From: an uncultured Muribaculaceae bacterium
GTDB taxonomy: Bacteria > Bacteroidota > Bacteroidia > Bacteroidales > Muribaculaceae
Direction of reading: 5' to 3'
Assembly (NCBI GenBank): GCA_944321875.1
Contig: CALUMX010000001.1
Location: 1 to 64,000 of the forward strand
Length of the DNA: 64,000 nt
Below are positions 33,445-55,749 of this stretch, piece by piece; position 1 is the stretch's first letter, and each line of letters starts with the position of its first letter. Under the pieces are notes generated by a model. That model saw nothing but the letters and a program-made list of their open reading frames with translations, was not told where the DNA came from and searched no databases. A program made the translations under genes and the position numbers.

Positions 33445-35280
33445 TTAGGCAAAACCAAGATGGAAATGGTCGATGAAACGCTTTGCCTTCGGGTTGCGCT
33501 CCACCATTTCAAGCAGCAGTTCTTTCTGAGTCCACAGTTTTTCCTGTGTTCCGGCCTCTCTCACCTTCACCCGCAACTGCAGATTGTCGTTCGAAACCTG
33601 TCCGCGCAAAAACGTCATCAGTTCCGGACGCTTGCTCTCCACCTTGTCGACCTGCGCCTGATTGTCAACGACAAACTCATAAGTCTCGCCGTCCACCTTG
33701 ACCGGAAACGAGGCCTTCATGGCATTGATGAGAATAATCTCGTCGGGATGCGACCTGACAAACTCACACCACGCTTCCCGGAATTCCTCTTCGGTAAAAG
33801 CCTTCGTACGCAGCGGATGCGACTGCGGTTGAGACGCCTCGGCCACTTCCGTTTTCTGTGCGGCAGGTTGTGGAGATGCCGCTCCGCGTATCGACATCGT
33901 CGGTACACCCACAAGACGTGGCGCATTGCCGCCCACCGCCTTTATCGAAGGCATCACATGTACCTGTGGCGCAGCCTGACGCACCGACGGCTGAGGGCTC
34001 ACCGGACGCGGCTGCACACTCGGTGCGGCAGAGGGCTGCGGAGCTGCCGTGCGCATCTGTTGAGCCGGTTGCAGTGCCTGTGGAGCTGAAGTCGGAGCCG
34101 GGGCTGCCGTATGAGTCTGCCCCTGTTGTCCACCGTTTCCCTCCAGCTTCTTCAAGCCCTGCTGAGGTTGTGGTGCAGGCGCATTGCCACCGAAAAGCTG
34201 GCAGATTTTAATAAGCGTGAGCTCAACAAGGAATTGCTTGTTGGTCGCGTTTGTATAGCTCAAGTCGCAGGTATTGCACAAATCCATCGACTGATAGAGA
34301 TGGTTGAGCGAGCAGCGTGCCGACTGGGCGACGTAGCGCTGCGCAATGTCGCCTGTCACCTCCAGCAGTGATGCCAGGGCAGGCGTATGGGCCACGACAA
34401 GCTCCCGCAGATGGGAAGCCAGTCCGTTGATGAATACCTTCGAGTCAAAACCGTGGTCACGCACGTCCTTAAACAACAGCAGCGACTGCTCCACATTGCC
34501 TTCCAGGAAAGCGTCGACCAGACGGAAATAATAATCATAGTCAAGAATATTCAGGTTGTCGATGGCAGCCTGATAAGTGATGTTGCCAAGCGAGGAAGCA
34601 GCCACCTGGTCGAAAATCGACAAAGCGTCGCGCATCGCACCGTCGGCTTTCTGCGCAATCACGTTGAGTGCCTCCGGCTCTGCCGTGTAGCCCTCACATT
34701 CGGCCACATACTGCAGATGCTCGGCAATATCGGCCGGCGTAATGCGCTGGAAATCGTATTTCTGACAACGGGACAGGATAGTAGGAAGAATTTTCTGCCG
34801 TTCCGTCGTAGCAAGAATGAAAATCACATAGGAAGGCGGCTCCTCCAGCGTCTTCAGAAACGCATTGAACGCCGCCGCCGAGAGCATGTGAACCTCATCG
34901 ACGATAAACACACGGTAACGTCCCATTGAGGGCGGAATCAGCACCTGGTCGGTCAGTTGGCGGATGTCGTCGACACTGTTGTTGGATGCCGCGTCCAGCT
35001 CAATGATGTTCATGGAACGCTGCTCGTTGAACGCCTTGCACGATTCGCATTCATTGCAAGGCTCGCCGTCCGGCGTACGGTGCTCACAGTTGATAGCCTT
35101 GGCAAAAATACGGGCCATCGTCGTTTTTCCCACACCGCGCTGTCCGCAGAACAGATAGGAATGCGCAAGACGGTCGGAAACGACCGCATTTTTCAGCGTA
35201 TTGACGAGTGCGTGCTGCCCGACGACCGACTTGAACGTCGACGGACGGTATTTTCTGGCTGATACGACATATTTTTCCAT
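33445..35280 (-). CDS. dnaX: DNA polymerase III subunit gamma/tau
   Basis: The protein has 611 residues. The clamp-loader AAA+ domain has Walker A GQRGVGKTT (46-54), the zinc-binding Cys cluster (CEHRTPDGEPCNECESC), Walker B IVDEVHMLS and sensor 1 ATTERQK. Domain III ends near residue 365. A Gln/Pro/Ala-rich linker (about 370-490) leads to a C-terminal tau-type domain. It loads the beta clamp and bridges polymerase cores. No obvious slippery site for programmed frameshifting was noticed, but I did not check exhaustively. The start codon lies 25 nt downstream of a consensus promoter carried on a dispersed repeat. Confidence 0.95.
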   Translation of the reverse strand: MEKYVVSARKYRPSTFKSVVGQHALVNTLKNAVVSDRLAHSYLFCGQRGVGKTTMARIFAKAINCEHRTPDGEPCNECESCKAFNEQRSMNIIELDAASNNSVDDIRQLTDQVLIPPSMGRYRVFIVDEVHMLSAAAFNAFLKTLEEPPSYVIFILATTERQKILPTILSRCQKYDFQRITPADIAEHLQYVAECEGYTAEPEALNVIAQKADGAMRDALSIFDQVAASSLGNITYQAAIDNLNILDYDYYFRLVDAFLEGNVEQSLLLFKDVRDHGFDSKVFINGLASHLRELVVAHTPALASLLEVTGDIAQRYVAQSARCSLNHLYQSMDLCNTCDLSYTNATNKQFLVELTLIKICQLFGGNAPAPQPQQGLKKLEGNGGQQGQTHTAAPAPTSAPQALQPAQQMRTAAPQPSAAPSVQPRPVSPQPSVRQAAPQVHVMPSIKAVGGNAPRLVGVPTMSIRGAASPQPAAQKTEVAEASQPQSHPLRTKAFTEEEFREAWCEFVRSHPDEIILINAMKASFPVKVDGETYEFVVDNQAQVDKVESKRPELMTFLRGQVSNDNLQLRVKVREAGTQEKLWTQKELLLEMVERNPKAKRFIDHFHLGFA

Positions 35281-35304
35281 AGCTTCAATCCGTGTTTACT
35301 TCCA

Positions 35305-35336
35305 CAAAGATAGTGAAAGGCGAGCGCAGTGGCAAA
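35305..35336 (-). promoter_or_regulatory. Repeat-borne consensus promoter upstream of dnaX (copy 1)
   Basis: On the minus strand, TTTG (35333-35336), a 20-nt spacer and TATCTTTG (35305-35312) make a perfect Bacteroidetes promoter. The spacer sequence is shared with the other repeat copies. The dnaX start codon is 25 nt downstream of the -7 box. Confidence 0.8.
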
Positions 35337-35388
35337 ATGAAACACAGTTTTCGATTCTGACAATGCCGAGCCGCCTCCTATCTTATGC

Positions 35389-35419
35389 AAAGATAGTGAA
35401 AGGCGAGCGCAGTGGCAAA
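35389..35419 (-). promoter_or_regulatory. Repeat-borne consensus promoter upstream of dnaX (copy 2)
   Basis: A second copy lies 84 nt upstream of the first: TTTG (35416-35419), a 19-nt spacer (one A fewer) and TATCTTTG (35389-35396). The two copies form a tandem pair and may drive dnaX from two start points. Confidence 0.7.
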
Positions 35420-35461
35420 CGTAAAACGCAGTTTTCAAGAAAGTCTATCCCGAAGATGTTG

Positions 35462-36319
35462 CTAATCTTTTTTGTTCCTTGAAGATTTCTTATGCACTTG
35501 ATTCTTTGTTAATGATTTCTCTTCCGATTTCAATCGTCTCTCAACTTTTTTCACATCCTCTCCAGCGGGCAGTTGTTCCGGGACGATGCCTCTTTGCAAC
35601 AGCATATTGCGCACTGCCGTGTTATTATCAATATGCTCTCTACAAATTTGCTCCTGTCCGTATAAATCTTTTTGCTGCACGTTGACGGATGTCATTTCCG
35701 CAGCAAAATCTTTAGCTTTAATACTGATAGTCGGTAGAAAATCAGCTAACGGCCGTTTGTCCGGTGCTCCTAATTTTCTTTTTAACAAAGCGGTATCTAA
35801 ATGAAACAAAGCCTTATCTCCCTTTGAGCGTATAACTGCAAAACCACTATTATCAACTCCTCGCTCATATATGATACCCGACAAGCGATTTTCCGTCTCC
35901 GCTAATTTATTACGTGCAGTAACACGCTCATAATCAAGAATTCTTTGCTGTACAAGCTCTGCCCTCCGTGTCTGGACAGCAAAATAATTCTGCGCAAATG
36001 CCACTTGAGGTTTACGGGAGTCTCCGTTTTGGGCAACAAGATAGCAGGCATATCGTGTCAACATATAGTCATTAACCTCACGCTGAGCTCCTTTTGCAAG
36101 GTCTATCATTTTGCTGATGTCAGCAAAATGATAACCGACTTCCTGTCCGGCATTGGTACACGCTGTTTTTGCTTTCTCTATGATATTCTCAAAGTTACGC
36201 CACTGAGCGTACCCTAACAAGCTTGACAAATCTCTGGCACTCCAACACTCTACTCCTTGGTATTCATTGGCTATAGATTCAAATTGCTGGAACAATTCAT
36301 TTATTTCTTCGGCTTTCAT
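35462..36319 (-). CDS. dinD: DinD-family DNA-damage-inducible protein
   Basis: The protein has 285 residues, close to the usual DinD length. The N-terminal BRO/KilA-like segment is [20 protein letters not shown], followed by the DinD block [35 protein letters not shown] basic, Lys-rich tail (KKSSRNKKD) closes it. The E. coli protein is SOS-induced and inhibits RecA-filament activities. The gene is more A+T-rich than dnaX and lpdA on either side, suggesting later acquisition. It has its own repeat-borne promoter. No LexA box was recognised. Confidence 0.88.
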
Positions 36320-36363
36320 GAGTACTTATTTTTTCCTTTAATAATGGCAATTAGTATCTTATG

Positions 36364-36395
36364 CAAAAATAAAGAAAGACGAGCGCAGTGGCAAA
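36364..36395 (-). promoter_or_regulatory. Repeat-borne promoter upstream of dinD (copy 3)
   Basis: On the minus strand, TTTG (36392-36395), a 20-nt spacer and TATTTTTG (36364-36371). The spacer half GCCACTGCGCTCG is identical to the dnaX copies, while the -7 half has drifted but keeps TAnnTTTG. It lies 44 nt before the dinD start. Confidence 0.7.
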
Positions 36396-36406
36396 AGTTA
36401 GTCCAA

Positions 36407-52147: not shown

Positions 52148-54918
52148 TCTTCCTTTTTAAGTACATAGACGGCATTGGCCGTAATGCGGCTGTCACCGCC
52201 CGGCACGTCCTCCAGCCGCATTCCCAGAGAGGATGCCACTGACTGCAGGTGCGGGCGTGACGTATAGTTGAGTTTTCCCTTTGTCTTGTTGAAAAGGCAG
52301 ACGCGTGTCGACAGAATTTCCGTCAGCACGGTCAGGCGGTGTTTCTTCCGTTCGGCGGCATTGCTGTCGCGCACCACAATCATTCCTCCCGGATTCAGCC
52401 GGGCAGCACAGCGGGCAAGGAGGTCTTCCTGCTCTTTGTCGCCAAGATAGTGAAGCACGTCGCTGATAATGAACGCATCGGAAAGCGGCAGTTCACAACG
52501 GCTTACGTCGGCACACACGAAATGCAGATTGTCGGGGCGGTGCCATCCATGAGCGGCAATGTCGATTTTCCGGCGGTCATAGTCGATACCTGTCACCTGG
52601 CGCTCTGCCGAAGTCATGGCCAGCAAGCGGCAGAGCATACCCATGCCGCAACCGATGTCGGTCAGCACGCCGCCGGCAGGCAGCAAGCGGTCAAACAGCC
52701 GATAATGATGCTCCAAACGGAATTTCACCTTCACATACCATTCCACGATTGGACCTTTGTAGATATAATGATGCAGGAATGCGCTCACTACGTTGGGATT
52801 GTCGGCCGACTGCATCGAGGAGCAAAGGCGGTCATACTCGCGGCGCATCAGCGCGCCTATCCGCTTCGTGCGCTCCTGATAGGTCGCACCGTAAGTCTTA
52901 TCGTCAGCCGGAATCAGCGGCAGAACCCTCACCGCCATAAGTCCGCGATGCACATAGCCGGGCTGCTGCTTCGGGATGATATGCCCGTTGCCATAGAAAA
53001 GCATCGGCAACAGGTCGGCATTCAGCTCCTCTGCCAGATAGAACGCTCCCTTGTGAAACCGCCGGATTCTTCCGTCGGTGCTGCGCGTTCCCTCCGGGAA
53101 AATACCCACTGAATAACCTTCTGCCATTTTCCGCTTCAGATAATCCATGTTTTTCTCATACCCGTCGGCCACACACACGAAACCCGCATAACGGATAACC
53201 GCACCGAATACGGGTGAGTTCCACACCCAGCGGTTCGTGACAATCAGCAGTTTCGGGAAAAGGGCAATCATAATCAGAATATCGACAAACGACTGATGGT
53301 TGGCAATGACAACCGCCGGCTTTGTCGGCAGGCAACCCTCATCGAACAGTTTCTTCTTCCTCACAAAGAAAGCCGACCAAAGCAGGAAACGGCAGGTGTA
53401 GTGCATCAAACCGCAGGTCAACGCCTGTTTCCTGCTTTGCCGTAAAGGCAAAATCAGCAGGAAAGGCAGAACGACGTGAAGGACGATACAGCCAAGAAGA
53501 AAAACGTTGTAGGTAAGAAACGTCTGAAGGAAACCGGCCAGCGTGTAAGGGCGCAGACCGCGGGAAGCAGGCCGCGAGATAAAAATATCGAACAACAAAG
53601 GTACGACGGAATAAGCCGTAGCCAGTTGGGCGGCATAAGTCAGGAAAGCAAGGGAGAAAATTTCGAAAAGAGAGGATTTCGGAAACAGCACCATTGCCAT
53701 TCCGGCCACCATCACGAGGGCTGAATAATACATGACAACTCCATGAAGCCGGTAGCCCTGAATTCCCCGACGGAAGCACCACAACTGCCGCGCTACCGAC
53801 AAGCCGCCCGCCAGTCCTCCTAATCCCATCGCGGCAATGGTCAGCATCTCCACCGTACGGCCATAGACTGTACCGCCATAGCTTTCCAACGCTCCGACAG
53901 ACAGCATTCCCACCTGTATGGGCAAAGATGAGAGAAAAGCCAGTTCGAAACGGCCGAAAACAGCCCATTGCAGGAGTAGAAACACCAACGCCACAATTCC
54001 TCCATCCGACTCCCAGAAAGGATTTCCTACCGCATGAAACCGACAGGAGGAAAAATCAAAACTTACGGAAAAAGCAATGACGGCAAGCATCGAAACCGCC
54101 GTCAGCAACACACTGTAGAATCCCAACTGCCACGCCAGGGCACGCACCAGATTGCGCGGAAAAATCCAGAAGACGCGGAGCAAAACGAGCAGCGTATTGA
54201 GCACACTGATGCGCGTGAAGTCACGCATCGGCCGGAAATGCGACACACGTTCCTCCTGCGGCGGATAATAGACGCGGATGGGGATGCTTCTCACCTCCAC
54301 GCCACCCCAGGCGGCAAAGACAAGGGCTTCCAGCTCAAATTCATATTTGGCCGTGTACCAGAAACGGTCCACGTTCATTTTCTTCAAGGGATACAACCGA
54401 TAGCCCGACTGCGTGTCGGGAAGGGCAATGCCCGTCTCCAGCCGGTACCAGAAATTGGAAAATTTATTGGCAAAGGTGTTCTTTCCCGGCATATTCTCAC
54501 TCTCGATGTTGCGCGCACCGACATAAAGTGCATCGGGATTCTGCTCTGCGGCCTCGATAAACAGCGGTAAGTCGGAAGGATAGTGTTGCCCGTCGGAATC
54601 GATGGTGATGGCCACCCGGTAACCTGACTTTTTCGCCTGTGAAAGTCCGTTTTTCAATGCGGAACCTTTGCCCTTGTTGCGTTCATGGCGGATAACCCTC
54701 ACCGAAGGGAAATTTCTCAACACTTCCTCAGTGCGGTCGGTCGAACCGTCGTTCACGACAATCACATCGGAAGCGTATTCCAACACCTCCGCCACCACGT
54801 CGCCGAGCGTCTTGTCGTTGTTGTAGGTCGGAATAATGACCACTCCACCCAACTTACGCATCCGCTCCGGCCACGACAGTTCCATGCGATTACCGTCAGC
54901 CTTCATTTCACAACTCAT
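52144..54918 (-). CDS. Fusion of GT2 glycosyltransferase, LPLAT acyltransferase and SAM methyltransferase
   Basis: The protein has 924 residues. Residues about 24-250 are a GT2 domain (VVIIPTYNNDKTLGDVV, the acidic motif TIDSDGQH). Residues about 255-500 are a polytopic membrane region. Residues about 510-715 are an LPLAT acyltransferase, with NHQSFVD as the HX4D motif and FPEGTRS. Residues about 770-924 are a class I methyltransferase (LTDIGCGMGMLCRLL). One chain could thus glycosylate, acylate and methylate a lipid head group at the inner membrane. It overlaps the dehydratase gene by 11 nt and the oxidoreductase gene by 4 nt. GT2-acyltransferase fusions are known in aryl-polyene loci; the added methyltransferase is less usual. 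Confidence 0.87.
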   Translation of the reverse strand: MSCEMKADGNRMELSWPERMRKLGGVVIIPTYNNDKTLGDVVAEVLEYASDVIVVNDGSTDRTEEVLRNFPSVRVIRHERNKGKGSALKNGLSQAKKSGYRVAITIDSDGQHYPSDLPLFIEAAEQNPDALYVGARNIESENMPGKNTFANKFSNFWYRLETGIALPDTQSGYRLYPLKKMNVDRFWYTAKYEFELEALVFAAWGGVEVRSIPIRVYYPPQEERVSHFRPMRDFTRISVLNTLLVLLRVFWIFPRNLVRALAWQLGFYSVLLTAVSMLAVIAFSVSFDFSSCRFHAVGNPFWESDGGIVALVFLLLQWAVFGRFELAFLSSLPIQVGMLSVGALESYGGTVYGRTVEMLTIAAMGLGGLAGGLSVARQLWCFRRGIQGYRLHGVVMYYSALVMVAGMAMVLFPKSSLFEIFSLAFLTYAAQLATAYSVVPLLFDIFISRPASRGLRPYTLAGFLQTFLTYNVFLLGCIVLHVVLPFLLILPLRQSRKQALTCGLMHYTCRFLLWSAFFVRKKKLFDEGCLPTKPAVVIANHQSFVDILIMIALFPKLLIVTNRWVWNSPVFGAVIRYAGFVCVADGYEKNMDYLKRKMAEGYSVGIFPEGTRSTDGRIRRFHKGAFYLAEELNADLLPMLFYGNGHIIPKQQPGYVHRGLMAVRVLPLIPADDKTYGATYQERTKRIGALMRREYDRLCSSMQSADNPNVVSAFLHHYIYKGPIVEWYVKVKFRLEHHYRLFDRLLPAGGVLTDIGCGMGMLCRLLAMTSAERQVTGIDYDRRKIDIAAHGWHRPDNLHFVCADVSRCELPLSDAFIISDVLHYLGDKEQEDLLARCAARLNPGGMIVVRDSNAAERKKHRLTVLTEILSTRVCLFNKTKGKLNYTSRPHLQSVASSLGMRLEDVPGGDSRITANAVYVLKKEE

Positions 54919-55261
54919 CCATTTCTGCCTTCATCTTCACACAAGTACGGCCGCCACACATACCCACCGCCTTAACCGTACGGCCATCGACATCGATTTC
55001 CAGCTCCACTACATCGGACAGCGACGGAGTGACCATTGCCAGAAACTTACACGATGACACTTTCCCATATTTCAGGTTACAACCAAGATACCGTTCTACC
55101 AGTTCCCGGATGATAAGCATCGTACATACCCCCGGCAATACAGGAGTACCGGGAAAATGTCCCTTGAACACATCATGGGCATAATTAATTCTGACAGAGG
55201 CTTTCACAGAGCCGCTTTCCGTCTCAAAACGTTCGGTAGAATACAATTGGTCGATTAGCAT
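54908..55261 (-). CDS. 3-hydroxyacyl-ACP dehydratase (FabZ/ApeI-like hotdog protein)
   Basis: The protein has 117 residues from the ATG at 55261. A longer frame exists, but its first 40 codons read through the promoter repeat and are not coding. The hotdog motif HDVFKGHFPGTPVLPGVCTM carries the catalytic His and the FPG turn. It would remove water from a 3-hydroxyacyl carrier during chain building. It is the first gene of the packed lipid cluster and has a full promoter 35 nt upstream. No ketosynthase or carrier protein is in view; these may lie beyond the right edge. Confidence 0.85.
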   Translation of the reverse strand: MLIDQLYSTERFETESGSVKASVRINYAHDVFKGHFPGTPVLPGVCTMLIIRELVERYLGCNLKYGKVSSCKFLAMVTPSLSDVVELEIDVDGRTVKAVGMCGGRTCVKMKAEMDEL

Positions 55262-55295
55262 AACAATTCCGCACTTCTGATAAAAGGCATTTTTG

Positions 55296-55327
55296 CAAAG
55301 ATAGTGAAAGGCGAGAGTAAAGGCAAA
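55296..55327 (-). promoter_or_regulatory. Repeat-borne promoter upstream of the lipid cluster (copy 4)
   Basis: On the minus strand, TTTG (55324-55327), a 20-nt spacer and TATCTTTG (55296-55303). The spacer keeps CTCGCCTTTCAC but differs from the dnaX copies in its first half. It is 34 nt before the dehydratase start. Confidence 0.75.
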
Positions 55328-55370
55328 TGAGAACAAAGTTTTCAAATTTGACTGTACCAAGCCGCATCCT

Positions 55371-55486
55371 ATCTTATACAAAGATAGTGAAAGTCGCGCG
55401 CAGAAAAAAGCAAGTTTACTTGCATATTTCAGCTGAGCTGCATCCTATCTTATCTAAAAATAGTGAAAGTCGAGAGCAAAGACAGC
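55371..55486 (-). repeat. Two decayed copies of the promoter repeat
   Basis: The conserved segment CATCCTATCTTAT introduces CAAAGATAGTGAAAGTCG at 55379 and TAAAAATAGTGAAAGTCG at 55455. With copy 4 at 55296 they are spaced 83 and 76 nt. The copy at 55379 keeps the -7 box but has lost the -33 TTTG; the copy at 55455 has lost both. They look like relics of tandem duplication. Confidence 0.7.
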
Positions 55487-55489
55487 AAC

Positions 55490-55749
55490 AGTTTCCATAG
55501 GCGATTCCTCGCTCGTAGGGATGTACCCCAGGTGCATCCGCCCCGCAAAAATCCGGAACAAACACCTGTAAATCATTGAATCATTCAGCAAAGTGCTGCC
55601 TGCGGGCGCACCTGGTGTACACCCCTAAAAGCCGGTGAAAAATAAATCTGAATATCGGGAATCTCCAAGAGTGATTTTCCACAACACCTATCGGATAAAA
55701 TACCTTGAAATTAGAATATTATGCCTTTTTGCGGATAATAAGCCGCAAA
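55490..55749. repeat. Left copy of the 260-bp direct repeat flanking the restriction island
   Basis: This 260-bp stretch appears again, with no difference that I could find by eye, at 63081-63340 in the same orientation. Inside it, arms 55522-55541 and 55602-55621 form an imperfect inverted repeat (17 of 20 match, core CCAGGTGC / GCACCTGG). It ends in TTTGCGG-N8-CCGCAAA. No convincing gene is contained. Confidence 0.9.

Follow-up and report, generated by a model that had tools for sequence, protein, structure and literature searches.

Promoter-like repeats in the window

Why does one short sequence recur upstream of dnaX, a dinD-like gene and a FabA-like dehydratase gene in the 64-kb window (the whole stretch of DNA analysed here), and is it a promoter or something larger that carries one? 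The initial annotation had read the repeat as a dispersed consensus promoter, always pointing into the adjacent gene and spread as a unit. The two tandem copies that it placed upstream of dnaX are both exact, on the minus strand at 35305-35336 and 35388-35419, each with the form TTTG-N20-TATCTTTG; they lie 83 nt apart, not 84, and their spacer is 20 nt long. A search with the 18-mer, allowing up to three mismatches, gave three matches in the window versus 0.03 expected from shuffling. The other two copies are present but altered. The one upstream of dinD is a decayed half-unit whose box reads TATTTTTG. Before the dehydratase gene the spacer differs (CCTTTACTCTCGCCTTTCAC), and the copy belongs to an array of about three tandem units that extends from 55293 to approximately 55490. 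Among the gene names, Pfam bears out dnaX (DNA_pol3 domains) and the FabA-like dehydratase, whereas the gene called dinD is identified just as encoding a Bro-N domain protein. The features are listed in Table 1.

Table 1. Repeat units, promoter-like boxes and target genes in the window
Feature	Position	Strand	Evidence
Gene-proximal full unit upstream of dnaX	35302..35388	-	R1 91.5 bits, E 2.9e-21
-7 box TATCTTTG of proximal dnaX unit, 24 nt before dnaX ATG	35305..35312	-	sequence
-33-type TTTG of proximal dnaX unit	35333..35336	-	sequence
Distal dnaX unit, left half decayed, right half intact	35385..35473	-	57.4 bits
-7 box TATCTTTG of distal dnaX unit	35388..35395	-	sequence
Decayed right half-unit upstream of dinD, box TATTTTTG at 36364-36371	36361..36399	-	core match with 1 mismatch; 16.1 bits, E 0.2
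Gene-proximal unit upstream of FabA-like dehydratase gene	55293..55379	-	90.3 bits, E 5.8e-21
Second, short-type unit upstream of dehydratase gene	55376..55455	-	61.3 bits
Right half of third dehydratase unit, ends approximate	55455..55490	-	core match at 55465-55479
dnaX (DNA polymerase III gamma/tau), target gene	33448..35280	-	PF13177 and PF22608 over cut-off
dinD-like gene (Bro-N domain), target gene	35462..36319	-	PF02498
FabA-like dehydratase gene, target gene	54908..55261	-	PF07977

Structure of the repeat unit

Alignment gave a unit of 75 to 90 nt, larger than the 32 nt first described, composed of AATAAGATAGGATGCGGCTCGGCA, a variable inner hairpin and TGCGCTCGCCTTTCACTATCTTTG. Conserved sequence reaches about 50 nt past the 32-mer, which bears out, and extends, the earlier remark that conservation exceeds what a promoter needs. 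The inner hairpin has either a long form (GAAAAC..GTTTTC) or a short form (AAAAAATCAAGC..GCTTGTTTTTT), and among copies it has been swapped for unrelated hairpins of other lengths; the unpaired stretches CTCGGCA and TGCGCTC are conserved in all families. A coding origin of the unit was rejected, its lengths varying freely and often not being a multiple of three.

The 3′ end of the unit matches a Bacteroidetes promoter of the sigma-ABfr -33/-7 type. In the host genome, TAnnTTTG ends 76 of the 92 gene-proximal units. Long-type units have TTTG 20 nt upstream of this -7 box; in short-type units a T run takes its place. The description of the repeat as itself a consensus promoter applies to its 3′ end, but the whole is not a bare promoter: it is a covarying hairpin.

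In RNA folds the entire unit forms an imperfect hairpin, with z scores of -2.2 to -3.4. The outer arms covary (AAGATAG/CTATCTT, AATATAG/CTATATT, AAAATAG/CTATTTT), and at 7 nt each they constitute terminal inverted repeats, as in MITEs. The inner triplet occurs in six complementary types (GGC/GCC, GCC/GGC, GGT/ACC, GTC/GAC, ATC/GAT, ATT/AAT) and is fully complementary in 113 of 125 units, compared with a mean of 49.8 and a maximum of 62 when the right sides were shuffled. A separate MAFFT alignment, built from 50 units of many different genomes, had 44 doubly changed cells, versus 10.1 after shuffling and 1 to 4 with the partner slid. Because related units are not independent, we read these covariation figures as strong indications and not as exact probabilities. 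On the top strand, wobble pairs comprised 32 A.C versus 12 G.T cells (17 versus 10 in distinct combinations), a bias that hints, too weakly to be of use, that the bottom strand may be the folding one.

Genome-wide copies and their position before genes

The initial annotation had proposed counting the copies and their directions over the full genome. Run on the 2.70-Mb host genome, the covariance model R1 matched 140 units in 92 arrays of one to four tandem units (52 single, 33 double, 6 triple and 1 quadruple), all to one profile, as the idea of a dispersed family spread as a unit had anticipated. Units abut head to tail, mostly with a period of 75 to 76 or 82 to 86 nt. With ORFs counted as same-strand frames that have an ATG start and at least 60 codons, an ORF starts within 250 nt of 86 of the 92 arrays and within 60 nt of 70; the median distance from unit to ORF start is 23.5 nt. 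Six arrays have no ORF within 250 nt. One of these precedes tRNA-Arg(CCT), whose start lies 11 nt past the unit, and most of the others are close to contig ends. Wherever it could be judged, then, the copies do point into the gene. The median distance matches the most common 5′ UTR of Bacteroides thetaiotaomicron, 23 nt, a species in which the -7 consensus is TAnnTTTG (PMC7366714). The 3′ end of the unit is promoter-like in sequence and in its placement before the ATG and before one tRNA gene, and this predicted promoter-bearing repeat lies, like a mobile promoter, upstream of many unrelated genes of a single genome.

At two host arrays (C8:89627 and C23:28284), a minus-strand open frame continues through the repeats and for 150 nt beyond each end; it may be spurious, or a gene may overlap the repeat there.

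Decay is unevenly distributed along the arrays. In the outermost units the left half is decayed in 32 of the 92 arrays and the right half in 7, and the last units of tandem arrays are nearly all intact on both sides; TAnnTTTG, present in the last units at the frequency given above, is kept by 20 of the 48 other units. With the outer left halves decayed and the last units intact, the pattern suggests that promoter halves are retained by the host and that new units are added close to the gene.

Empty orthologous sites and insertion junctions

The upstream regions of array-bearing host genes were compared with their orthologues in two congeners, sites being scored as filled or empty by a regular expression from which half-units may escape. 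By this measure 69 of 76 orthologous sites were empty, some of which could be losses, and one of the seven filled sites (L275) proved false on inspection. Filled and empty orthologous sites, as expected of a promoter that moves, are seen here at the species level; the congeners are distant (DnaX 63 to 67% identical), so that exact insertion junctions are unreadable from near-identical flanks.

A TAnnTTTG box was present no more than 82 nt before the ATG in 47 of the 69 empty sites, and in 26 of these 47 its spacing was within 6 nt of that in the occupied site (permutation mean, 15.9; p 0.0006). The remaining 22 empty sites had no such box within 82 nt, so some insertions may have occurred away from an existing box, or the box may since have been lost. 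The earlier notion of a portable promoter is correct in that a promoter-bearing unit has spread, but given the 47 boxed sites the unit appears mostly to duplicate or replace a promoter already there. The site upstream of dnaX is empty in three congeners, which have a native -7 box 19 nt (G002 and G003) or 26 nt (G001) before the ATG; plain boxes similar to these also precede dnaX in many other relatives. At yqgF, G003 has a native TATCTTTG plus one unit and G002 is empty.

At the left end of the array, the first unit directly adjoins an exact TAnnTTTG in 18 of the 92 host arrays, with a mean of 0.05 at control positions; some of these 18 boxes belong to a further, undetected unit, and a subset has unrelated upstream sequence. 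In 19 of 31 cases the native box and the unit box have identical variable bases (permutation mean, 9.5; 0 of 5,000 permutations as high). The -7 box flanks both ends with matching variable bases, an arrangement equally expected from target duplication and from an element whose own end carries that sequence. The best identity between units of different loci in the host is 96%, and no very recent jump is therefore seen there.

Insertion-sequence-like ends also adjoin units in the host. One, CTAAGGTTT/NNATAAGA.AGG (the slash marks the junction), recurs three times at the identical unit position (C2:77/78, C18:58710/58711 and C37:29859/29860), and another abuts the unit twice as CTATCT/ATTCTTATGG (C20:55970-55980 and C36:64-145), as if an insertion sequence targeted the unit junction; these ends lie on contig ends, with the full element out of view. 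A further such end, CTAGTCCTAAATAACCGTTACAG, is found at seven host places, including C5:122125 and C6:121300; it lies beside units in two and is mostly intergenic elsewhere.

Distribution across the Bacteroidales

All four genomes of the host genus have many units, and the other genera of the family are patchy. In a sample of 247 Bacteroidales genomes, for which copy numbers are minima because at most 17 units were scored in each, units were matched in 23, about 15 of them with at least 9 copies, and most genomes gave no detected match. The carriers include Paraprevotella clara, P. xylaniphila and uncultured members of Tidjanibacter, Merdimorpha, Caccoplasma, Pullibacteroides and Barnesiella. 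In other families, Paraprevotella included, the layout of the unit is identical to that in the host. A strict-pattern search of viral contigs found none carrying the repeat.

Upstream of dnaX in a genome of another genus (G007, locus L193), there are at least three tandem, divergent copies of about 75 nt (AGATAAGATAAGATGCATTCGGG..TTTTCGTTATCTTT), independent of the dnaX array of the host. The repeat-rich Bacteroidales genomes are mostly small (2.1 to 3.0 Mb) and mostly lack Y1 transposases.

A probable mobile hairpin seated at the -7 box

We consider it probable (about 0.7) that the repeat is a short nonautonomous mobile hairpin of the Bacteroidales that enters at an existing -7 box and recreates it. 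From the species-level comparison, the unit would enter directly downstream of the TAnnTTTG box of an existing promoter. Since the unit ends in the same box, the spacing between a working promoter and the start codon would be preserved, with the native promoter displaced upstream by the inserted unit. Units would then multiply in tandem, the outermost left halves decaying and the gene-proximal promoter halves being kept. Pairing or homology of the unit's ends with the target box probably plays a part in insertion, because the variable bases of native and unit boxes coincide; the way in which native box, left arm and right arm agree likewise suggests, as a hypothesis, that such pairing or homology matters. 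A more specific version, which we put forward tentatively as possible rather than probable, is that of a promoter-homing element: insertion would be directed to the promoter core, perhaps to DNA opened by RNA polymerase, by base pairing or homology of ends that match the -7 box, and the element would regenerate the promoter that it hits and so spread without silencing genes. Of two candidate mobilising enzymes, a Y1 transposase was absent from the host and not found in most repeat-rich genomes, and an integron integrase was not found over the cut-off in 11 genomes.

The strong covariation of the arms and the stability of the RNA folds would also suit a cis-regulatory RNA leader, in which the unit, transcribed from the native promoter, would serve as a structured 5′ leader, with selection preserving the hairpin and the 3′ promoter being secondary; a subset of units begins immediately behind a native -7 box, at the point where a transcript would start. 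We regard this as unlikely, since the part that is lost from outermost units is the left arm (32 of 92) and the part retained is the promoter half, and TAnnTTTG is concentrated in the last units (76 of 92, versus 20 of 48 others). The target genes are moreover unrelated, the unit is nearly absent from most related genomes, unlike a conserved riboregulator, and no Rfam 15 family matched it above the gathering score, the single sub-threshold match elsewhere being a chance one. A host regulon, whose conserved halves would be the site of a DNA-binding regulator and whose copies would have arisen by convergent or vertical evolution, could explain why CTCGGCA and TGCGCTC are unpaired and yet conserved in all families. 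It is quite unlikely in view of compensatory changes in both arms, mostly empty orthologous sites in congeners, targets without functional relation and an inner hairpin that can be replaced by unrelated ones of different length.

Mobility itself could be of a known kind. A REP/REPIN-like repeat might be moved by a Y1 (RAYT/IS200-type) transposase, which recognises a short target and integrates single-stranded hairpins on its 3′ side, and here the geometry fits: as judged against IS200/IS605 elements, the unit has a target-like left flank, the identical sequence at its right end and a complementary arm beside each. Yet Y1_Tnp (PF01797) is absent from the host and, although present in 170 of the 247 Bacteroidales, was not found in 12 of the about 15 repeat-rich genomes, which makes this explanation very unlikely; a current Y1 driver is rejected for the host, leaving a lost or very divergent Y1 enzyme as a possible one. 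Ordinary promoter evolution combined with replication slippage, with strong promoters resembling one another and arrays arising by local tandem duplication, accounts for the tandem periods inside an array once a unit is present. As an origin of the repeat it is highly improbable: about 50 nt beyond promoter needs are conserved between unrelated loci and families, 140 matches fall to a single profile, and the conserved left half contradicts it. The mobile hairpin entering at the -7 box is the reading that we retain.

Were it true, a noticeable share of promoters in some Bacteroidales would have been rebuilt by a mobile hairpin targeting the core promoter, there being 92 arrays in the 2.7-Mb host genome, many of them beside housekeeping genes. 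For a mobile element, such targeting would be unusual and would do little harm. It would also give rise to tandem and duplicated promoters and provide a ready-made collection of natural promoter variants. Which enzyme moves the repeat becomes a concrete question, two obvious candidates having been tested and found absent.

Comparison with known systems

Short dispersed repeats that carry promoters are a known kind of element. For a covarying hairpin that is seated exactly at the -7 box and would regenerate it, no description was found in Rfam or in those open-access papers that were searched, and the repeat may be listed among earlier mobile-promoter predictions. An ordinary sigma-ABfr promoter (TTTG .. 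TAnnTTTG) resembles the 3′ end of the unit and is normally spaced from the ATG, as is the unit, but lacks the conserved spacer and the covarying upstream half. REP/REPIN sequences with their RAYTs are likewise short imperfect palindromes, dispersed between genes and nonautonomous; the difference is that the host and most repeat-rich genomes are without a Y1 transposase. The attC sites of integrons are imperfect hairpins of about this size whose bulges are conserved and whose tip varies, arranged in tandem and in the same orientation, as are the units. An integron mechanism was rejected, with no integrase (TIGR02249) over the cut-off in 11 genomes and no gene cassettes between units.

In the BrickBuilt MITE of Porphyromonas gingivalis, a 23-nt repeat stands between long leader and tail segments (PMC4596501). 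Like the unit, it belongs to the Bacteroidales, is intergenic and contains tandem repeats, and BrickBuilt segments have promoter activity; it has a limited host range and differs in its leader/tail layout, its distance of 49 to 591 nt from coding sequences and its transcription both ways (PMC4596501). Compared with mobile promoters, insofar as PMC8049555 conveys them (Matus-Garcia et al. 2012; van Passel et al. 2014), what we describe here is instead a covarying hairpin, arranged in tandem, that would enter at an existing -7 box.
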